Shown in pieces: positions 15,864-26,233 of a DNA stretch of 64,000 nucleotides (its first letter is position 1; every line of letters begins with the position of its first letter). Location: contig NZ_FXUE01000002.1 of NCBI RefSeq assembly GCF_900182935.1, forward strand, positions 806,001-870,000, written 5' to 3'. Source of the DNA: Fibrobacter sp. UWB10 (GTDB lineage Bacteria > Fibrobacterota > Fibrobacteria > Fibrobacterales > Fibrobacteraceae). The notes beneath the pieces are model-generated. The model searched no databases, was not told the DNA's origin, and was given only the letters and a program-made list of their open reading frames with translations. The position numbers and the translations under genes were made by a program.

Positions 15864-15992
15864 AAGGAACCTTTCTTTTAATTTATGTTTACAAAGATAT
15901 ACTCTTTTTTCAAGAAAAAGCATTTCTGTTCAAATAATTGTAAAAAAGTCGTTGTATGTTTCAAAACAAAACAACTTTCTAATCTTTGCACT

Positions 15993-16007
15993 TGGCATGA
16001 AAATTGC
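15993..16007 (+). promoter_or_regulatory. Sigma-54-type promoter of grpE
   Basis: TGGCAT-N5-TTGC with exactly 10 nt between the GG and GC doublets fits the -24/-12 sigma-54 pattern, with one change from TGGCAC. It lies 75 nt before the grpE start. Nothing resembling a CIRCE operator was seen. Confidence 0.75.
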
Positions 16008-16015
16008 TAAATATA

Positions 16016-16040
16016 GGGCGAAAAATGTAAAACAGCGCCC
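16016..16040 (+). promoter_or_regulatory. 5'-end hairpin of the grpE leader
   Basis: GGGCG / CGCCC with an A-rich loop starts 8 nt after the -12 GC, so it would be at the very 5' end of the mRNA. The dnaK leader has the same hairpin at the same distance. Confidence 0.55.
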
Positions 16041-16081: not shown

Positions 16082-16735
16082 ATGGCAGAAGATTTGAATC
16101 AGCAGGAACCGACCGCAGAAGAAAAGGCAAAATTCGAACAAGACGTGCTCAAGGCCGCCGAAGAAGCCATGAAAATGGAAGCCGAAGCCAACAAGGCCGA
16201 CACATCTGACGCCCAGGCTGAAGCCGCCGAGCAACCCGCTGAAGCTGCAGAAAAACCGGCAGAACCTGCCGAAGCCGCTCCCTCTGCTGAAGAAGTTCTG
16301 AAGCAGCAGCTGGCCGATGCCACTGACCGCAACCTGCGCCTGATGGCCGAATTCGACAACTACCGCCGCCGCACCGCCAAGGAACAGCTCGAACTCATCG
16401 AGACCGCGAACGGCAAACTCCTGGAAAAACTCTCCGAAGTGCAGGACAACTTCGAGCGCGCCTTCGCCAGCGAAAACAAGGCCCAGGATTTGGAAGCCTT
16501 CGAGAAGGGCATGCAGATGATCTACAACCAGTTCGCAAAGATTTTGACCGACGCGGGCCTCGAGCAAATCGACCCGACCGGCGCAGAATTCGACCCGAAC
16601 ATGCACGAAGCCCTGATGCAGCAGCCCAGCGAGACCGTGCCCGAAGGCCACGTGGTCACCGTGTTCCAAAAGGGCTACAAACTCAAGAACAAGATTCTCA
16701 AGACCGCGAAGGTCATCGTCTCTTCCGGAAAATAA
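16082..16735 (+). CDS. grpE: GrpE nucleotide exchange factor
   Basis: The 217-residue co-chaperone opens the DnaK nucleotide site. The first 75 residues are an Ala/Glu-rich, low-complexity extension. From about 80 come the long coiled coil (LMAEFDNYRRRTAKEQLE) and the C-terminal beta domain (GAEFDPNMHEALMQQPSETVPEGHVVTVFQKGYKLKNKIL is the usual region). The ATG follows AAAAGGA. Unlike most bacteria, where grpE stands next to dnaK, here dnaK lies 6.3 kb downstream past unrelated genes. Both have sigma-54-type promoters. Confidence 0.95.
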   Translation: MAEDLNQQEPTAEEKAKFEQDVLKAAEEAMKMEAEANKADTSDAQAEAAEQPAEAAEKPAEPAEAAPSAEEVLKQQLADATDRNLRLMAEFDNYRRRTAKEQLELIETANGKLLEKLSEVQDNFERAFASENKAQDLEAFEKGMQMIYNQFAKILTDAGLEQIDPTGAEFDPNMHEALMQQPSETVPEGHVVTVFQKGYKLKNKILKTAKVIVSSGK

Positions 16736-16762
16736 ACCTGCGCGACACTCCCCCGCTTTTTA

Positions 16763-16795
16763 GGCACAGTTACGCTTTGTACTGTGCCATTTTTT
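16763..16795. terminator. Bidirectional terminator overlapping the rhuM 3' end
   Basis: GGCACAGT / ACTGTGCC stem followed by TTTTTT ends grpE transcription. On the other strand the same hairpin encodes the last residues and stop of the RhuM-like protein. Confidence 0.8.
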
Positions 16796-17816
16796 CGTGC
16801 AATTCCAAAAAGTAGTCGAAATCGCTGTGGAAAAGCTTATCCTGAACCACGCGATATTTTTCCCATTCCGTAATGGCGTGGGCCACTTCCATCGAAATCT
16901 TACCCGCGTTTGTCAAAAGTTCGTGCTCCGTAGCCTCAAGAATGCGGTCAAGGTGCCTCGCCCAGTCTTCCATCGTCATGGGAATGTGCCTTGCGGCCTG
17001 CATTTCTGCAAAATCCAGATAACCCGAGACAATCAGCTCCAGGGCCTTGAGTTCATCTTCTTCAAGATAATTCTTTGCGACAATTACGTCGGACTGAAGA
17101 ATTTTGCCCTTTGGAGATGCCGCCCAGGTCTTCAACCCCATGTGCTCCTTTTGGCTGTCAGCCCGTTCTACAATGAGTTCCGCCGCCGTATGGCCGTGAA
17201 TCGCCCAATGGAGTTTGTTTTGGACCTTCTTGAAAAAATCCCGGGTGATTTTTGCAGAGGGATCGTAATCTAGCGCAGTCGAATAGATATCAGTCACCTT
17301 CTGGTAAAAGCGTCGCTCCGACACGCGGATTTCTCGAATGGCTTCCAATTGCCGCTCGAAATAGTCTTCGGTAAGGATTGTCCCGAAATTCTTGAGCCGC
17401 TCCTTGTCCATGACCCAGCCCTGGATGGTGTAATCCTTGACAATTTGCCCCGCCCACTTGCGGAACTGCACCGCCCGCTCGTTGTTGACCTTGAACCCCA
17501 CGGCAATAATCATCTGGAGGTTGTAGTGATTCGCCTGGTAATTTTTCCCATCGCCAGCAGTTATTAAGTATTTCTTAATAACTGAATCTTCTGCTAATTC
17601 CCCATCTTCGAGAATGTTCTTGATATGCTGATTTATTGCCGGAACGCTAACCCCGTACAGTTCTGCCATCATTTTTTGCGTGAGCCATACGTTTTCGTCT
17701 TCGTAACGCATTTCAACGCTCTGTTCGGAACCGCCCACAGCAGCCACATAAGTCAAGTATTCTGCAGCGGAACTGCGGATAGACACGGGATTGATTTTTT
17801 GACCATTTTTGCTCAT
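16770..17816 (-). CDS. RhuM family protein
   Basis: The 348-residue protein matches the RhuM / 'virulence protein' family, cytoplasmic, found in genomic islands and near restriction systems. Typical parts: VWLTQKMMAELYGVSVPAINQHIKNI (helix-turn-helix-like) at about 45, IKKYLITAGDGKNYQANHYNLQMIIAVGF, and FRKWAGQIVKDYTIQGWVMDKERL. Its molecular role is not established. No restriction-modification genes are next to it. The start at 17816 is preferred over 17870: TATATT lies 9 nt upstream. It lies in the accessory segment that separates grpE from dnaK. Confidence 0.8.
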   Translation of the reverse strand: MSKNGQKINPVSIRSSAAEYLTYVAAVGGSEQSVEMRYEDENVWLTQKMMAELYGVSVPAINQHIKNILEDGELAEDSVIKKYLITAGDGKNYQANHYNLQMIIAVGFKVNNERAVQFRKWAGQIVKDYTIQGWVMDKERLKNFGTILTEDYFERQLEAIREIRVSERRFYQKVTDIYSTALDYDPSAKITRDFFKKVQNKLHWAIHGHTAAELIVERADSQKEHMGLKTWAASPKGKILQSDVIVAKNYLEEDELKALELIVSGYLDFAEMQAARHIPMTMEDWARHLDRILEATEHELLTNAGKISMEVAHAITEWEKYRVVQDKLFHSDFDYFLELHEKMAQYKA

Positions 17817-17929
17817 TTGAACACTAATATATATAAATTGAACGCCGCCGTCAATAGCCGGAGAGGACAATTTGTGTGAAAATAAACTAAATTATGGGTG
17901 TAGATTTTTGAGGTTACCGGAGGTCTTCT

Positions 17930-19081
17930 GTGAAGATTTTTGCAAACGCTTTGGCTCTGTCCATTCTCCTAGCCCTGCTAGCAGCATGTGGCGATGAATC
18001 CTCTTCTTCTGTTTCGCCGGAACCCCGCCAGTGCGAGGAACAGAGCGATGATTGCGATGACGCAAGTTCTAGCAGTGAAAAAATTTCCAAAAATTCTTCT
18101 AGCTCGCAAAAGAGCGCCGATAAGGGCAAGTCTTCTTCTAGCGAGAAGAATGTGAAGGAATCTAGTTCCTCAACAACTACCAAGAATTCTTCTAGCTCCG
18201 TCAGTGGCGATAAGAGTAGTTCTTCCGTCAAAAAAGAAGAATCTAGCAGCAGCGCTGTGAAGTCTTCTTCCAGTGTAACGCCGAAGTCGAGCAGCAGTGA
18301 AGAAGTTAAGCAGTCTTCTTCGAGTGTTGTGGCTTCGAGTAGTAGCGTTACCTCTTCTGAAACGGTGAAGTCGAGTAGTAGTAAACAGAACCCTTGGGGC
18401 ACAGAAGAAGAATGGTGGCCGTTTAGTTGTAATGCCTTTGGTGGGTGTCTTGAATTTACGGATAAAAGAAACAATCGCACATACAAATATTTGAAGTTTG
18501 AAGGTAAGGATACCACGGGAGAGGCTGCGACTATTTACGCGATGGTGGAAAACTTGAATGTTGGTGAAATGGTTCGTGGTTATAAGGACCAAAAAGATGA
18601 TTCAAAAATAGAACGTTACTGCTATGATAATGATACTTTAAATTGCCTTTATTATGGAGGCCTCTATCAGTGGGCTGAAATGATGCAATTGCCGTTCGAA
18701 TGCAATAGTAAGAGTTGTGCCGATTCGATAAAGCCCAATCATCAAGGTGTATGTCCTGAAGGTTGGCGCTTGCTGACATATAATGATTTCTACATCATTG
18801 TCAACAGTAACGGAAATACGCATGGCGTTGAGGGCGTACGTTCTTCCTTTGGCTTTGGTGGGTATAATACAACTGGTTACAGTCTTGTCGGTGCTGGATA
18901 TAATTGGGATTATTCTTTTGAACGATTGAATGAATCTACATATTGGCATTATCCACAGGAAGGATCTATAGGGAATAATACATCATTTGTTGGGTATCAG
19001 GGTCGTACTTCGACTAAAATAGGAACGCAAAGTACTTACAAGACCCATGGATTTTCCGTCCGTTGTGTAATGGTTGAATAA
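17930..19081 (+). CDS. FISUMP-domain lipoprotein, copy 1
   Basis: A 383-residue lipoprotein. The signal peptide ends in the lipobox LLAAC. Residues 25-155 are a linker of SSSS blocks every 7-10 residues. The C-terminal domain (about 165-383) has the Fibrobacter major paralogous (TIGR02145) pattern: YAMVENLNVGE, YGGLYQWAEMMQLP, CPEGWRLLTYNDF, GAGYNW, HGFSVRCVMVE. It is probably on the cell surface; its function is unknown. It starts with GTG after a strong GGAGG. A second copy lies inverted at 62519-63550; the linkers, the 5' leader and the 3' flank are nearly the same in both. Confidence 0.88.
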   Translation: MKIFANALALSILLALLAACGDESSSSVSPEPRQCEEQSDDCDDASSSSEKISKNSSSSQKSADKGKSSSSEKNVKESSSSTTTKNSSSSVSGDKSSSSVKKEESSSSAVKSSSSVTPKSSSSEEVKQSSSSVVASSSSVTSSETVKSSSSKQNPWGTEEEWWPFSCNAFGGCLEFTDKRNNRTYKYLKFEGKDTTGEAATIYAMVENLNVGEMVRGYKDQKDDSKIERYCYDNDTLNCLYYGGLYQWAEMMQLPFECNSKSCADSIKPNHQGVCPEGWRLLTYNDFYIIVNSNGNTHGVEGVRSSFGFGGYNTTGYSLVGAGYNWDYSFERLNESTYWHYPQEGSIGNNTSFVGYQGRTSTKIGTQSTYKTHGFSVRCVMVE

Positions 19082-19170
19082 CCATCACTTTCAAACTGTA
19101 AAATTTTAAATAAAAAACAAAAAACTAGGCATTCCTGGGGGGAATGCCATTGGGAGTTATTATGTCCAAG
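19070..19170. repeat. Conserved 3' flank of FISUMP genes, copy 1
   Basis: This stretch, from the end of the FISUMP gene to ATGTCCAAG, recurs on the opposite strand at about 62432-62530 with only a few differences. It holds a hairpin GGCATTCC-TGGGG-GGAATGCC, then TGGGAG as a ribosome binding site, then ATG. Confidence 0.85.
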
Positions 19171-19230
19171 AAGAACATCAAGAACAACAAGAAAAATTCC
19201 ACCCGCAAGAACTACAAAATGGACGCCTAA
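19162..19230 (+). CDS. Possible 22-residue Lys/Asn-rich peptide
   Basis: The frame encodes MSKKNIKNNKKNSTRKNYKM plus DA. It is preceded by TGGGAG at good spacing and by a conserved hairpin. The same hairpin, binding site and first codons ATG-TCC-AAG occur downstream of the other FISUMP gene, where the frame then diverges and stops after 16 residues. Retention of start signals in both copies favours translation; divergence of the rest argues against a conserved peptide function. Confidence 0.4.
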   Translation: MSKKNIKNNKKNSTRKNYKMDA

Positions 19231-19249
19231 AGGCGTCTACGGCTGCGTT

Positions 19250-19287
19250 CGGTCATGCCAAAACGCAAGCGTTTTGTCGCGACACTC
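19250..19287 (+). repeat. Palindrome element with conserved flanks, copy 1
   Basis: CGGTCAT, then CAAAACGC-AA-GCGTTTTG, then GCGACACTC. The copy at 62380-62417 has the same flanks around an unrelated palindrome. Confidence 0.6.
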
Positions 19288-19353
19288 ACTTGCACGTTAC
19301 TGAAGCTCTTGAACCGCGTCTGCACTAAAGCGACGGCGAATGCCTGGCCGCTA

Positions 19354-19393
19354 AGCGAACATTCGTCGGGCGAAGCCCGAGGCCATGCGAGCG
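19354..19393 (+). repeat. 40-bp direct repeat, copy 1
   Basis: It matches 19602-19641 at 37 of 40 positions. The central hairpin is CGGGC-GAA-GCCCG here and CGGCC-GAA-GGCCG there, a paired compensating change. Confidence 0.7.
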
Positions 19394-19440
19394 TGCGGAG
19401 CAGGCTGAGCCGGAGCGCTTTTTTCGGACATGAAAAGCTG

Positions 19441-19460
19441 ATGCCGATTTCCATCGGCAT
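19441..19460. repeat. Short palindromic repeat (ATGCCGAT hairpin)
   Basis: ATGCCGAT-TTCC-ATCGGCAT followed by GAC. A related hairpin ATGCTGAC-CTTC-GTCAGCAT lies at 63615-63634 in the same flanks (GCTG before, GAC after). Confidence 0.6.
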
Positions 19461-19601
19461 GACGCGGGCGGGGAAAGGAGGTGCCGGCTTCCCCGTTCCG
19501 AGGACCATATCCACTAAGCAGCAAAGCTGCAAGTGGCTATTGGCAAGTGCGGCAAGACAACCGGAAATGAATGCCCTAAGGCGGAAGAAGATAAGTCGTC
19601 G

Positions 19602-19641
19602 AGCGAACATTCGTCGGCCGAAGGCCGAGGCCATGTGAGCG
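19602..19641 (+). repeat. 40-bp direct repeat, copy 2
   Basis: The partner of 19354-19393, 248 bp further on, with the compensated hairpin change described there. Confidence 0.7.
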
Positions 19642-19680
19642 AGGCGAGCTTAGCTCTGGAGCCGTGGGCATTTGTAGCCC

Positions 19681-19733
19681 AAGGCGTTACGGGCGCGGCG
19701 ATTGAGCGCCCGTTCGAGGGGGTGCTGGAAGAC
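19681..19733. repeat. GC-rich repeat ending GGGGGTGCTGGAAGAC
   Basis: GGCGTTACGGG...GCGCCCG...GAGGGGGTGCTGGAAGAC has a close relative at 63656-63701. Both are followed later by GGCTGCAAGCAGGGGG and a C-rich run. Confidence 0.55.
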
Positions 19734-19749
19734 TTGCCCTGGTTCAGTC

Positions 19750-19795
19750 TAGATCCTTCGACTCCACTGCGTTCCGCTCAGGATGACACAAGGGC
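19750..19795. repeat. Palindromic repeat GATCCTTCGACT...CTCAGGATGAC
   Basis: It belongs to the same family as the copy read in frame inside hemC (29103-29148). This one is intergenic. Confidence 0.65.
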
Positions 19796-19925
19796 AAGGC
19801 TGCAAGCAGGGGGAGCCTTCCCCCACCTTTGTAAAAATGTCAATGATAAGTTAATCCCGGGGCGTTCCGCGGGGCTTTTCGCGATATATCTTTATCTCTG
19901 GTGTAAAACATGTTTGGAGATTAAG

Positions 19926-22034
19926 ATGAAAAATATTTTATCCGTTACTTCTGTATTGGCTTTGGCTGGAATGGCCTTTGCCCAGCAACCAATCATTACA
20001 ACCAACTACACGTGTGACCCGGCGCCCTATGTCCATGGGGATACGGTTTACCTGTACACGACCCACGACGAGGACAATGCCGAAGGGTTCGTCATGTACG
20101 ACTGGCTGTTACACACGTCTACAGACATGGTCAACTGGACTAGCCACGGGGCTGTGGCCTCCCTGAACGATATCCAGTGGAGTACTAAGACCAATGGCGC
20201 TTGGGCCGAGCAGGTTGTGTTTCGCAATGGCAAATGGTACATGTACGTCCCCATTCACGGCAACGGCATTTCCGTCTTGGTGGCAGATAGTCCCTACGGC
20301 CCCTTCAAGGAACCTCTGAACAAGGCCTTGGTTTGGCAGCGGCAACATTGGAACGACATCGACCCCACCGTATGGGTGGATGATGACGGCCAGGCCTATT
20401 TGTACTGGGGAAATCCCGACCTCTATATGATCAAGCTTAACGAAGACATGATCAGTACTTCCGGCAATATTGTTACCTACCCCAAGATCAAGGATTACCA
20501 GGAAGGCCCTTGGCTCTACAAGCACGATAAACATTACTATATGGCTTTTGCTTCCACCTGCTGTGCCGAAGGCATCGGTTACGCCATGAGCGACTCCCCC
20601 ACGGGCCCCTGGACCTACAAGGGCGACATTATGCCTCATTCCTCCCGCAGTAATGGAAACCACCCGGGAATTGTGGATTACAAGGGGAAATCATACGTTT
20701 TTGGCCATCATTACCAGCTTTGGCACCAGAAATCCGATAAAATGGGCCTTAAGTTCCAGCACAAGGAACGCCGTTCTGTTGGCGTTGCCGAGATGAAGTA
20801 TAATGCCGACGGAACCATCCAGAAGATTGAGTGGTGGCCGGATAATGGTGTGGCCCAGCTGGAAGATTTTGACCCGTACAAGCGCGTGGAAGCGGAAACC
20901 ATGTCGTGGGGCGAAGAAGTGAGGGTCCGTAAGAGCGGTGCTGCCGGCAATACGGTTCTCACCAACCTTACCGAAGGCAAGTACACCAAGATTAGCGGCG
21001 TGGAATTCGGTGACGCCGGCGCAGAATCCTTCTCGGCTTCCGTTTTGAGCGTTAAGAGGGCATCCTCCGTTACGGTTCGCCTGGACAAGGTGGATGGCCC
21101 CGTGGTTGCCAAGGCTGAATTCAGTAAGGACGGTCTGGTGACCGTGCCTGCCGAAGGTGCAGTTGGCAAGCATGATGTATTCTTCATGTTCGCAGGTGAT
21201 TTCGAAGCCGATTACTGGGAATTTGAAGACAGCAAGACCGCAGTTCCTCAGGGGCCGTTCTGCAAGGCGAAACTCAACGACCCCGAGGCAAAATGCAATT
21301 TGCCGGTTGTGGGCGCGAAGGTCGAGGGCACGGCCAACTTCATCGACTTCGAGAACTACGATGTGGGCGGTGCGGGCAAGGCTTACTACGACATGGACAC
21401 CAAGAACCAGGGCGGCGAATACCGCGAAGACCGCGTGGACATCGTGAAGAACGGCGACGGATTTGCCGTGGGCTACACGCAGAAGGGCGAATGGCTCGAA
21501 TACACCGTGAACGTGCAGGCCGGCGGGAAGCTTCCCTTTGAACTGAGCTACGCAAGCGGCATGGACAACACGGGCGTGCGCCTGTTCATGGACGACGAGC
21601 CGATTACCGACACGCTCGCGCTCACGGGCACCGGGGATTTCGACACCTACGGCACCTTCAAGGGCACGACCACCAAGGAACTCACCACGGGCGAACACGT
21701 GCTCAAGGTGATGGTGACAAGTGACTACGTGAACCTCGACTGGATTGCCTTTGGTGAAAGCGAAGGCAGCGCCGAGGACATCAGGAACGGAACCACGGGC
21801 ATCGTGCCGAAAATCGCCGCCGGAGCCGCGGGCGTGGCAAACGCTTTCGCGAGGGCCGCGGGCAGCTACAAGGTATTCGACCTGATGGGCTCCGAACTCG
21901 GGAACATCCGCCTGAACGCCGGCGCGACGCTGACGGACCTCAAGGCCGGACTCAAGACCGCCGGCTTCGGGAGTGGCGTCTACGTCGTCCGCAACCCTGC
22001 TGGAAAGACTTTGAAATTGCAAGTCGGGGAATAA
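19926..22034 (+). CDS. Secreted GH43 glycosidase with CBM6 and C-terminal sorting tail
   Basis: A 702-residue exported enzyme, probably an arabinofuranosidase or beta-xylosidase acting on arabinoxylan. After the signal peptide (ends FAQQ) the five-bladed GH43 domain shows DPAPYVHGDTVYLYTTHDED (catalytic base Asp), DIDPTVWVDDDGQ (central Asp) and EGPWLYKHDKHYYMAFAS (acid Glu). A linking beta domain (about 315-435) leads to a CBM6 module (about 450-600; VGYTQKGEWLEYTVNV, YVNLDWIAFG). The end (SYKVFDLMGSELGNIRL...GSGVYVVRN) resembles type IX sorting tails. From about 21240 on the DNA is visibly more GC-rich than the catalytic part, which suggests module shuffling. GGAG precedes the ATG. Confidence 0.88.
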   Translation: MKNILSVTSVLALAGMAFAQQPIITTNYTCDPAPYVHGDTVYLYTTHDEDNAEGFVMYDWLLHTSTDMVNWTSHGAVASLNDIQWSTKTNGAWAEQVVFRNGKWYMYVPIHGNGISVLVADSPYGPFKEPLNKALVWQRQHWNDIDPTVWVDDDGQAYLYWGNPDLYMIKLNEDMISTSGNIVTYPKIKDYQEGPWLYKHDKHYYMAFASTCCAEGIGYAMSDSPTGPWTYKGDIMPHSSRSNGNHPGIVDYKGKSYVFGHHYQLWHQKSDKMGLKFQHKERRSVGVAEMKYNADGTIQKIEWWPDNGVAQLEDFDPYKRVEAETMSWGEEVRVRKSGAAGNTVLTNLTEGKYTKISGVEFGDAGAESFSASVLSVKRASSVTVRLDKVDGPVVAKAEFSKDGLVTVPAEGAVGKHDVFFMFAGDFEADYWEFEDSKTAVPQGPFCKAKLNDPEAKCNLPVVGAKVEGTANFIDFENYDVGGAGKAYYDMDTKNQGGEYREDRVDIVKNGDGFAVGYTQKGEWLEYTVNVQAGGKLPFELSYASGMDNTGVRLFMDDEPITDTLALTGTGDFDTYGTFKGTTTKELTTGEHVLKVMVTSDYVNLDWIAFGESEGSAEDIRNGTTGIVPKIAAGAAGVANAFARAAGSYKVFDLMGSELGNIRLNAGATLTDLKAGLKTAGFGSGVYVVRNPAGKTLKLQVGE

Positions 22035-22074
22035 GTTCCCGCGAGACAATCCGCCTCCCCCATACTTTAAAATA

Positions 22075-22107
22075 CCCCGACCTCTCGTAAAGAAGGCCGG
22101 GGTTTTT
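22075..22107 (+). terminator. Terminator after the GH43-CBM6 gene
   Basis: CCCCGACCT / AGGCCGGGG stem with one mismatch, followed by TTTTT. Confidence 0.75.
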
Positions 22108-22135
22108 AGCGTCAATGTTTAATGTATTTTTGAAC

Positions 22136-22450
22136 TTAGCAAATTATTCCCAAATTTTTCAAATAATCCATCTTGCTTCCGAGAATACGGATTATCAATA
22201 CCTTGTCAAGTTCAATTCTATAAAAGACAATACTGTTCGCGACAGACAAATATCTATAGCGAGCAAGTGTTTTTACTATTCCCTTCAAGGAAGGTCCAAG
22301 TTCCGGAAAAATGGCCAACTGATCAATCGCATCAAGAATTTCAATAATCCTATTGTTTGCAGCAATGGGACTCTTTAATTCTTTCTCGATGTATTCCTTG
22401 ATGTTGTCCAGATCTTCGCTTGCCTTTGGCGAAAATACGATTGCGGCCAT
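22136..22450 (-). CDS. RelE/ParE-type toxin
   Basis: A 104-residue protein with the ParE/RelE fold signature: SPKASEDLDNIKEYIEKEL, then ...RYRYLSVANSIVFYRIELDKVLIIRILGSKMDYLKN. Members block translation or gyrase; the target cannot be told from sequence. Its ATG touches the antitoxin stop (TAG-ATG), so the two are translationally coupled with the antitoxin first. Confidence 0.82.
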   Translation of the reverse strand: MAAIVFSPKASEDLDNIKEYIEKELKSPIAANNRIIEILDAIDQLAIFPELGPSLKGIVKTLARYRYLSVANSIVFYRIELDKVLIIRILGSKMDYLKNLGIIC

Positions 22451-22696
22451 CTAGACCTCGTATTTCTTTCGGACATCGGCGGCCATCATCCAGCCATTCT
22501 GCTCTGCGGAGCGTTCGCCTTCTTCAAGGGAGTGCTTCAACTTGAGTTCGGCAACCATCCGTTCGTATTCGTTGATATCGATGACGACGTAGCACCCCCT
22601 GCCGTTTTTCGTCAAAAAAACCGGAGCATCCTCGGACACCTTCTGTAGCACTTCATTGTAATTGCGCAAGTCTGAAACAGGTAAAATACAGGGCAT
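22451..22696 (-). CDS. Phd/YefM-type antitoxin
   Basis: An 81-residue antitoxin: MPCILPVSDLRNYNEVLQKV, then APVFLTKNGRGCYVVIDINEYERM, the DNA-binding Phd/YefM domain, and a charged C-terminus that should wrap the toxin. The frame opens at 22711, but GGAGG five bases before the ATG at 22696 gives the start. TATATT upstream suits a promoter that the complex itself would repress. Confidence 0.82.
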   Translation of the reverse strand: MPCILPVSDLRNYNEVLQKVSEDAPVFLTKNGRGCYVVIDINEYERMVAELKLKHSLEEGERSAEQNGWMMAADVRKKYEV

Positions 22697-22795
22697 AACA
22701 ACCTCCATCATAAATATACATAATTTTAAGTAAAATTACAAGAAGAATTTGTAGTAAAATAAAAAAGATTGCTTTTGTGCAATATTTTTTGAAGG

Positions 22796-22890
22796 GCCGG
22801 GGTTTTTAAGGGGTGTCCCCTTAGGCGAGGGGGTGGAGAGCGACGGAGTGCGAACCAGGGGGAGGCTTCCCCCTCCCCTCCTACACAGAG
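22796..22890. repeat. GC-rich intergenic repeat
   Basis: Opposed G-runs and C-runs around GACGGAGTGCGAA, similar to the block at 345-405. The rest of the gap up to dnaK holds a GCCCC-GATTTA-GGGGC hairpin with T-run (22919-22939) and the dnaK promoter. Confidence 0.5.
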
Positions 22891-22987
22891 CGTTTTAATA
22901 TGAAACACGCCTTTTTTGCCCCGATTTAGGGGCTTTTCTTGTTTCAGAACGAAACAAAATGGCCGTTTTTTGCCAGTTATTAGCATT

Positions 22988-23002
22988 TGGCACGGGTTTT
23001 GC
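22988..23002 (+). promoter_or_regulatory. Sigma-54-type promoter of dnaK
   Basis: TGGCAC-GGGTT-TTGC is an exact match to the sigma-54 -24/-12 consensus, with 10 nt between GG and GC. It lies 76 nt before the dnaK ATG. Confidence 0.85.
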
Positions 23003-23010
23003 TTATGTAT

Positions 23011-24980
<1,970 letters not shown>

Positions 24981-25090: not shown

Positions 25091-26233
25091 ATGGCTGAAA
25101 AAAGAGATTATTACGAAGTTCTAGGCGTCGGCAAGGACGCAAGTGCTGATGAAATCAAGCACGCGTACAAGAAGCTTGCCATCAAGTACCACCCGGACAA
25201 GAACCCGGGCGACAAGGAAGCCGAAGAGAAGTTCAAGGAGGCTGCCGAGGCCTACGATGTGCTCAGCAACCCCGAGAAGCGTAAGCAGTATGACCAGTTC
25301 GGCTTTAACGCCCCCGGTGGCGGTTTTGGTGGCGGCGGATTCGGTGGCCAGGGATTCTCTTTCGAAGATATCTTTGCGAACTTCGGCGATATTTTCGGTG
25401 GCGGATTCGGTGGTTTTGGCGGCAGCCGTCGGGGCGGTCGCAAGGCCGGGCCTCCGCGCGGTAACGACTTGCAGATCAAGGTGGCGCTCAGCTACAAGGA
25501 AATCTTCGAGGGCTGCACCAAGAAGGTTCGCCTGAAACGCTACACGCCGTGTACGGAATGTAACGGCAAGGGCGGCACCGACATCAAGACTTGTGAAACC
25601 TGTAAGGGTACGGGGCGCGTGCGCCGCGTATCTGGCGGGTTCTTCCAGATGGTTTCCGAAAGCGCCTGCCCCACCTGTAACGGCATGGGCGAAGTCATCG
25701 CGAACCCGTGTAGCCGTTGCCGCGGCGAGGGCCGTGTGCAGGAAACGGAAGAAATTTCCATCAAGATTCCGGCGGGCGTTGCCGAGGGACAGTACCTGAA
25801 CCTGCGTGGCGAAGGCAACTGCGGGCCTCGCGGCGGTGCCTGCGGCGATTTGTTGGCAGTGATTGCCGAAAAGCCCGACGACTTCTACACCCGCGAAGGC
25901 GACGATTTACACTGCGAAATCAAGGTGCCGGTCCACAAGCTGGTTCTTGGCGGTACGCAGCGAATCCCGACGCTGGACGGTAGCGAAGTGCAGATCAAGA
26001 TTGCGGCCGGCACTCAGGCCGGGAGCATCTTGCGCCTGCGCGAACAGGGCCTGTACCCGCTGAACAAGCGCGGCGACCGTGGAAGCCTCTACGTGAACAT
26101 CGGCGTGGAAATCCCGAAGGACCTTAGCCGCGAAGAGAAGGAACTCTACCAGAAACTCGCGGAACTGCGTCACGACAAGGAAACCGCACAGGAAGAAAGC
26201 TTCCTCGAGAAGATGAAGAACCTGTTCAAGTAG
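25091..26233 (+). CDS. dnaJ: Hsp40 co-chaperone DnaJ
   Basis: A 380-residue class I J-protein. The J domain holds YHPDKNPGD (HPD at about 33). It is followed by a Gly/Phe-rich stretch (70-115) and four CxxCxGxG zinc motifs ([32 protein letters not shown]), then the C-terminal substrate domains. It delivers substrates to DnaK and triggers ATP hydrolysis. A CGGAGGG binding site precedes the ATG. It may be read from the dnaK promoter or from a TATATG-type box just upstream. Confidence 0.97.

Follow-up and report, generated by a model that had tools for sequence, protein, structure and literature searches.

The window analysed here is a stretch of 64,000 nucleotides from Fibrobacter sp. UWB10 (contig NZ_FXUE01000002.1, positions 806,001 to 870,000 of the forward strand), in which the chaperone genes grpE, dnaK and dnaJ lie on the plus strand. 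Members of Fibrobacter are main fibre degraders of herbivore guts. The following features were located, with positions given in the window:

15958..15972, plus strand: palindrome GTTTCAAAACAAAAC upstream of grpE, 20 bp before the TGG of the box, a proposed activator site
15992..16007, plus strand: sigma-54 -24/-12 box TTGGCATGAAAATTGC of grpE, called from sequence
16016..16020, plus strand: GGGCG, 5' arm of the inverted repeat at grpE, overlapping the predicted start (CG at 16019-16020)
16036..16040, plus strand: CGCCC, 3' arm at grpE, not kept as a partner of GGGCG in other grpE promoters
16082..16735, plus strand: grpE (PF01025, E=1.1e-43)
22892..22906, plus strand: distal palindrome GTTTTAATATGAAAC of dnaK, 81 bp before TGG
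22941..22955, plus strand: proximal palindrome GTTTCAGAACGAAAC of dnaK, 32 bp before TGG
22987..23002, plus strand: sigma-54 -24/-12 box TTGGCACGGGTTTTGC of dnaK, kept in all dnaK promoters of the genus that were read
23011..23028, plus strand: inverted repeat GGGCG...CGCCC in the dnaK leader, clade-specific
23079..24980, plus strand: dnaK (PF00012, E=3.9e-266), coding start set by comparison
25091..26233, plus strand: dnaJ, 3' of dnaK (PF00226, PF01556, PF00684)

Without their first base, the boxes read TGGCATGAAAATTGC at grpE (15993-16007) and TGGCACGGGTTTTGC at dnaK (22988-23002), and the grpE start was predicted from the distance to the -12 element. A sequence-only reading of this DNA had described a sigma-54 box followed by GGGCG...CGCCC at the same 8-nt distance in grpE and dnaK, and the letters are exact at both genes. 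TTGC and GGGCG are eight bases apart in each case, the arms at dnaK occupy 23011-23015 and 23024-23028, and the loops are unequal (15 nt at grpE, 8 nt at dnaK).

The grpE box scored 25/25 and agrees with the consensus TGGCAC/T-N5-TTGC, including the invariant GG and GC. Genome-wide counts were obtained by pattern searches of the 3.48-Mb genome (G000), in which TTGGCAYN5TTGC gave 28 matches against 5 for the reversed control, so that boxes of the grpE/dnaK type exceed chance. When the stem was added to the pattern, three matches were retained (none in the control), two of them being grpE and dnaK. Boxes were also located 5' of clpB, htpG and groES, and 5' of eight other genes: glnN, gltB, glnB, probably amtB, dapF, spoVG, a gene for a 270-aa sigma factor that was closest to RpoS models but below their cut-offs, and secA (boxes, in this order, at C3:114183, C3:176964, C3:87134, C4:264050, C2:490885, C1:373582, C5:94834, and C7:115815). 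Several of the remaining matches lie inside coding frames and are likely due to chance. Across Fibrobacter, a near-perfect -24/-12 box, mostly with zero mismatches, was found in 28/28 grpE and 25/25 dnaK promoters read, and likewise in all 30 groES and all 30 htpG promoters scored; as the genomes are related, these counts are not independent. The sequence evidence for sigma-54 promoters at the chaperone genes is strong. Both boxes being conserved throughout the genus, the separate grpE and dnaK promoters proposed earlier are borne out, and grpE, judged by sequence and conservation, has a true sigma-54 promoter.

The earlier proposal had marked the regulon by the box together with the hairpin; the box stands as a shared feature, but the hairpin does not. 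GGGCG at TTGC+8 with CGCCC 3-20 nt further on was present in one of 28 grpE promoters (this genome alone), in 13 of 25 dnaK promoters of the genus, and in none of the 30 groES and 30 htpG promoters. Three relatives (G003, G009, and G029) have the same grpE box, but GGCAC where this genome has GGGCG. What is kept instead of the hairpin is CG(A/T)AA at TTGC+12 to +16 in grpE, dnaK, groES, and htpG, and the CG at TTGC+12/13 recurs in 10 of 14 sigma-54 boxes of this genome, including those of glnN, amtB, and spoVG; clpB has it too. Transcription from sigma-54 promoters starts about 12 bp past the -12 C, and CG(A/T)AA was therefore assigned to the start-site region. By this comparison of sequences, GGGCG, the 5' arm, corresponds to the start-site region that the sigma-54 promoters of this genome share, those of nitrogen genes included, and its first three or four bases probably precede the start and so are not transcribed.

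Folding of the leaders was no better than that of shuffled sequences (mean z -0.56 for grpE, -0.76 for dnaK), and the stem search after GTAAAA likewise placed the grpE leader at shuffle level (mean p 0.43). No consensus stem was obtained by MAFFT/RNAalifold at grpE, dnaK, or groES, and the Rfam scan returned no match at the grpE and dnaK leaders and only sub-threshold matches elsewhere. With a single occurrence among the grpE promoters, no Rfam match, near-zero folding z and no consensus stem, the hairpin was dropped as a regulatory RNA. That GGGCG...CGCCC co-regulates grpE and dnaK, either as an RNA hairpin or as an operator, is thus highly improbable despite the equal distance in both genes of this genome and the 13 dnaK promoters that carry it, as it is missing at groES, at htpG and at all but one of the grpE promoters, and sigma-54 start sites here share its 5' arm in general. 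At grpE, GGGCG is part of the promoter, and no role of the hairpin is supported.

A further element, absent from the sequence-only reading, is a 15-bp palindrome, GTTTCAnnnTGAAAC, located 5' of the grpE, dnaK, and groES boxes, with two copies upstream of groES in this genome. Palindromes were called at ≥10/12 matches and ≤140 bp upstream of the box. By this threshold, they were present in 26/28 grpE, 24/24 dnaK, and 25/30 groES promoters of the genus, compared with 0.5-1.1% of shuffled upstream regions (1.1% for grpE); five groES and two grpE promoters lacked a good palindrome. The distances from palindrome to box were 9-10, 19-21, 31, 41-42, and 52 bp at grpE, 11, 21-22, and 32 bp at dnaK, and 21, 32, and 53 bp and beyond at groES. 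For the 17 distinct distances below 60 bp, including that of secA in this genome (10 bp), the best period was 10.65 bp (R = 0.90), which was reached by 0/5000 random sets; since the genomes are related, this formal value overstates independence. Below 60 bp, the upstream site keeps to a constrained face of the helix, and the groES sites beyond 60 bp are off the ladder.

Such one-turn steps across separate genes and clades would be hard to explain except by a protein facing the polymerase, and the palindrome is a strong candidate for a common activator site at grpE, dnaK, and groES. The idea that grpE and dnaK belong to one regulon is upheld in this form: the two genes share the palindrome in helical phase with the box, and groES shares it too. 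In the comparison of upstream regions, box and palindrome were common to these three genes; at clpB, the box was present, but no palindrome was found.

The combination of palindrome and box was scanned for in 84,980 species genomes, which yielded 71 matches. Fibrobacter records dominate, and in these the downstream gene, wherever it lay on the contig, was dnaK or grpE, with gaps of 20-21, 32, and 42 bp. A second block of matches, from Duganella and Stenotrophomonas, was located entirely 5' of prpB, where a near-identical palindrome lies 43-45 bp before the sigma-54 box. In Salmonella, the prp operon is known to be controlled by sigma-54 and PrpR (PMC3844500), and the prpB matches can therefore be taken as a positive control for this architecture. 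They differ from the Fibrobacter matches in that they concern propionate genes in other bacteria, with no chaperone genes among them. The remaining matches look like single chance ones. One record titled Bacillus subtilis (L320, JAHREJ010000001.1) contained a prpB promoter and gene of the Stenotrophomonas type, which points to contamination or to a wrong label.

Control of the same genes was compared in related families of the phylum. No match to HrcA was found in the genus or order (f1, f2), nor in f7 and f10; the repressor is present in f3, f4, f5, f6, f8, and f9. In the HrcA families examined, CIRCE was located 5' of groES (16-18/18 matches), and no strong sigma-54 box preceded that gene. 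In the families without HrcA, groES or dnaK mostly had a sigma-54 box and a palindrome. No CIRCE (TTAGCACTC-N9-GAGTGCTAA) was detected in the window with up to three mismatches allowed, and, HrcA being missing from genus and order, an HrcA-CIRCE regulon was rejected here. The HrcA-CIRCE system controls the same genes in related families, but in Fibrobacter, which is without HrcA, activation would replace repression. In f6 and f8, dnaK is preceded by the palindrome and a weaker box, so that mixed control may have come first. In f3, which has HrcA, the palindrome was found about 90-105 bp before the groES CIRCE, where the promoter is sigma-70-like and a sigma-54 box is missing (L401 1474-1488; L396 about 9896; L395 about 1493). 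The palindrome is therefore not strictly tied to sigma-54 and another protein is possible; f3 groES is the chief finding that speaks against an exclusive link to sigma-54.

Seven full enhancer-binding proteins are encoded in the genome. One of them, the candidate activator (gene at G000:C1:480832-482301), has orthologs in 61/61 Fibrobacterota genomes, and in f2, f3, f4, f5, f6, and f8 its gene immediately follows dnaJ in the (hrcA-)grpE-dnaK-dnaJ cluster. This cluster is broken up in Fibrobacter, where the activator gene adjoins those of a histidine kinase and a single-domain receiver (30/30 genomes). The protein contains the domains Sigma54_activat (PF00158) and Fis-type HTH_8 (PF02954) and has the properties of an NtrC-type enhancer-binding protein, i.e., an AAA+ sigma-54 interaction domain, a GAFTGA-type loop, Walker A and B, and a Fis-type HTH. 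The loop that contacts sigma-54 reads GSYTGS or GAYTGS in Fibrobacter and GAFTGA or a near variant in the others, and the recognition helix is largely conserved from f1 to f8. As for autoregulation, no palindrome or sigma-54 box was found before any of the seven activator genes. The dnaJ-linked NtrC-type protein is most likely the one that binds the palindrome, the gene order being observed directly and the binding inferred; the case for its identity is good but indirect.

The palindrome might instead be bound by another of the seven enhancer-binding proteins, or by an unrelated regulator, at promoters that are nonetheless real sigma-54 promoters, with the dnaJ-linked protein controlling something else. 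We consider this unlikely: the number of such proteins, the f3 groES palindromes without a sigma-54 box and the near-identical palindrome at prpB, owing to which sequence alone names no protein, speak for it, but among the enhancer-binding proteins examined only the dnaJ-linked one is encoded beside chaperone genes (in six families), and its orthologs are present in all 61 genomes. Less probable still is that the boxes are real and serve not stress but a link to growth or nutrients, through nitrogen-type activators as at glnN, gltB, and glnB. These genes and probably amtB do have boxes in the same genome, but the palindrome of grpE, dnaK, and groES was not found at the nitrogen-gene boxes there, and gene order links the candidate activator to dnaJ.

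The phosphate-accepting Asp of the receiver is replaced by Glu in all Fibrobacter sequences aligned; the position is Ala or Ser in f2, f3, and f5, and Asp in f4 and f8. The conserved receiver Asp of a phosphorylated, HsfA-like response regulator is thus lacking in Fibrobacter, and with Glu in its place, phosphorylation of the candidate activator is unlikely in this genus. It is conceivable, although we hold it rather doubtful, that the activator with its unphosphorylatable receiver is the heat-shock regulator of Fibrobacterota, held inactive by DnaK/DnaJ and freed when the chaperones are busy. Such restraint would account for the place of the gene beside dnaJ and, if true, would be an activator-based parallel to the titration loops of sigma-32 and HrcA.

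The 7-kb separation of grpE and dnaK, on which the earlier reading had remarked, is present in this genome but derived, as other families have grpE, dnaK, dnaJ, and the activator gene side by side. Within the genus, the interval ranges from about 0.14 kb (G035) to about 15 kb (G019), and in G035 the adjacent grpE and dnaK each already have their own box and palindrome. This fits a history in which an operon was the starting point and dnaK acquired a promoter of its own, either before genes came between or while they did. In the window, the interval (16736-22980) encodes a Fib_succ_major protein and a GH43-CBM6 enzyme and might be a hot spot for insertions. One genome of 85% completeness (G006) has, on contigs C22 and C38, two distinct grpE loci along with two near-identical dnaK loci, which may represent a duplication or a mixed bin.

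The arrangement that we regard as likely, from promoter sequences and gene order, is a sigma-54 regulon of grpE, dnaK(-dnaJ), groES(-groEL), and probably htpG under the palindrome-bound, dnaJ-linked activator. Sigma-54 RNA polymerase would wait at the -24/-12 boxes of these genes, and the activator, bound to the palindrome on the proper face of the helix, would open the promoter using ATP. In Fibrobacter, sigma-54 and a dedicated activator, not the usual heat-shock switches, seem to turn on these chaperone genes jointly, and wherever a lineage lost HrcA/CIRCE, this system seems to have taken over as the main control of its chaperone genes.

Published control of the core chaperones is by special sigma factors (sigma-32) or by the repressors HrcA, HspR, and CtsR (PMC8762339). 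The literature searched contained nothing direct on sigma-54 control of dnaK or groESL and no paper on heat-shock control in Fibrobacter. The nearest precedent is Myxococcus xanthus, in which, according to PMC9109919 (citing Ueki and Inouye 2002), the NtrC-like HsfA activates the heat-shock gene lonD. In both cases, an NtrC-like regulator would drive heat-shock genes, but in the M. xanthus HsfB-HsfA phosphorelay the target is one protease gene and HsfA is phosphorylated by a hybrid kinase, whereas in Fibrobacter the main chaperone genes would be the targets and the candidate activator has a receiver without the phosphate-accepting Asp. Sigma-54 also touches the heat-shock system through enterobacterial rpoH, which has a sigma-54 promoter (PMC3844500); rpoH, however, encodes a regulator and has several promoters, of which this is one; it does not belong to the chaperone genes themselves. 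A phylum in which HrcA/CIRCE was replaced by sigma-54 activation would represent a third way, an ATP-driven switch. The unity of the regulon would also have outlasted the break of the operon, each fragment having its own promoter and its own copy of the activator site.

At htpG, the palindrome is placed differently. It matches 12/12 in nearly all of the 30 genomes, at a constant offset of +52/53 from TGG on the downstream side of the box (L184, G000:C3:21378-21392; loci L365-L394), and may be a DNA site, an RNA element or both. In the leader it caps a longer hairpin, of which the outer stem varies and largely stays paired, with 10 pairs changed on both sides (0/500 shuffles as high). The groES leaders (e.g., L162, G000:C2 about 336080; L335-L364) folded better than shuffles (mean z -2.5). 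RNAalifold on the plain alignment gave no consensus for them, and a hairpin of the GTCCA...TGGAC type was observed shortly past the start in most genomes.
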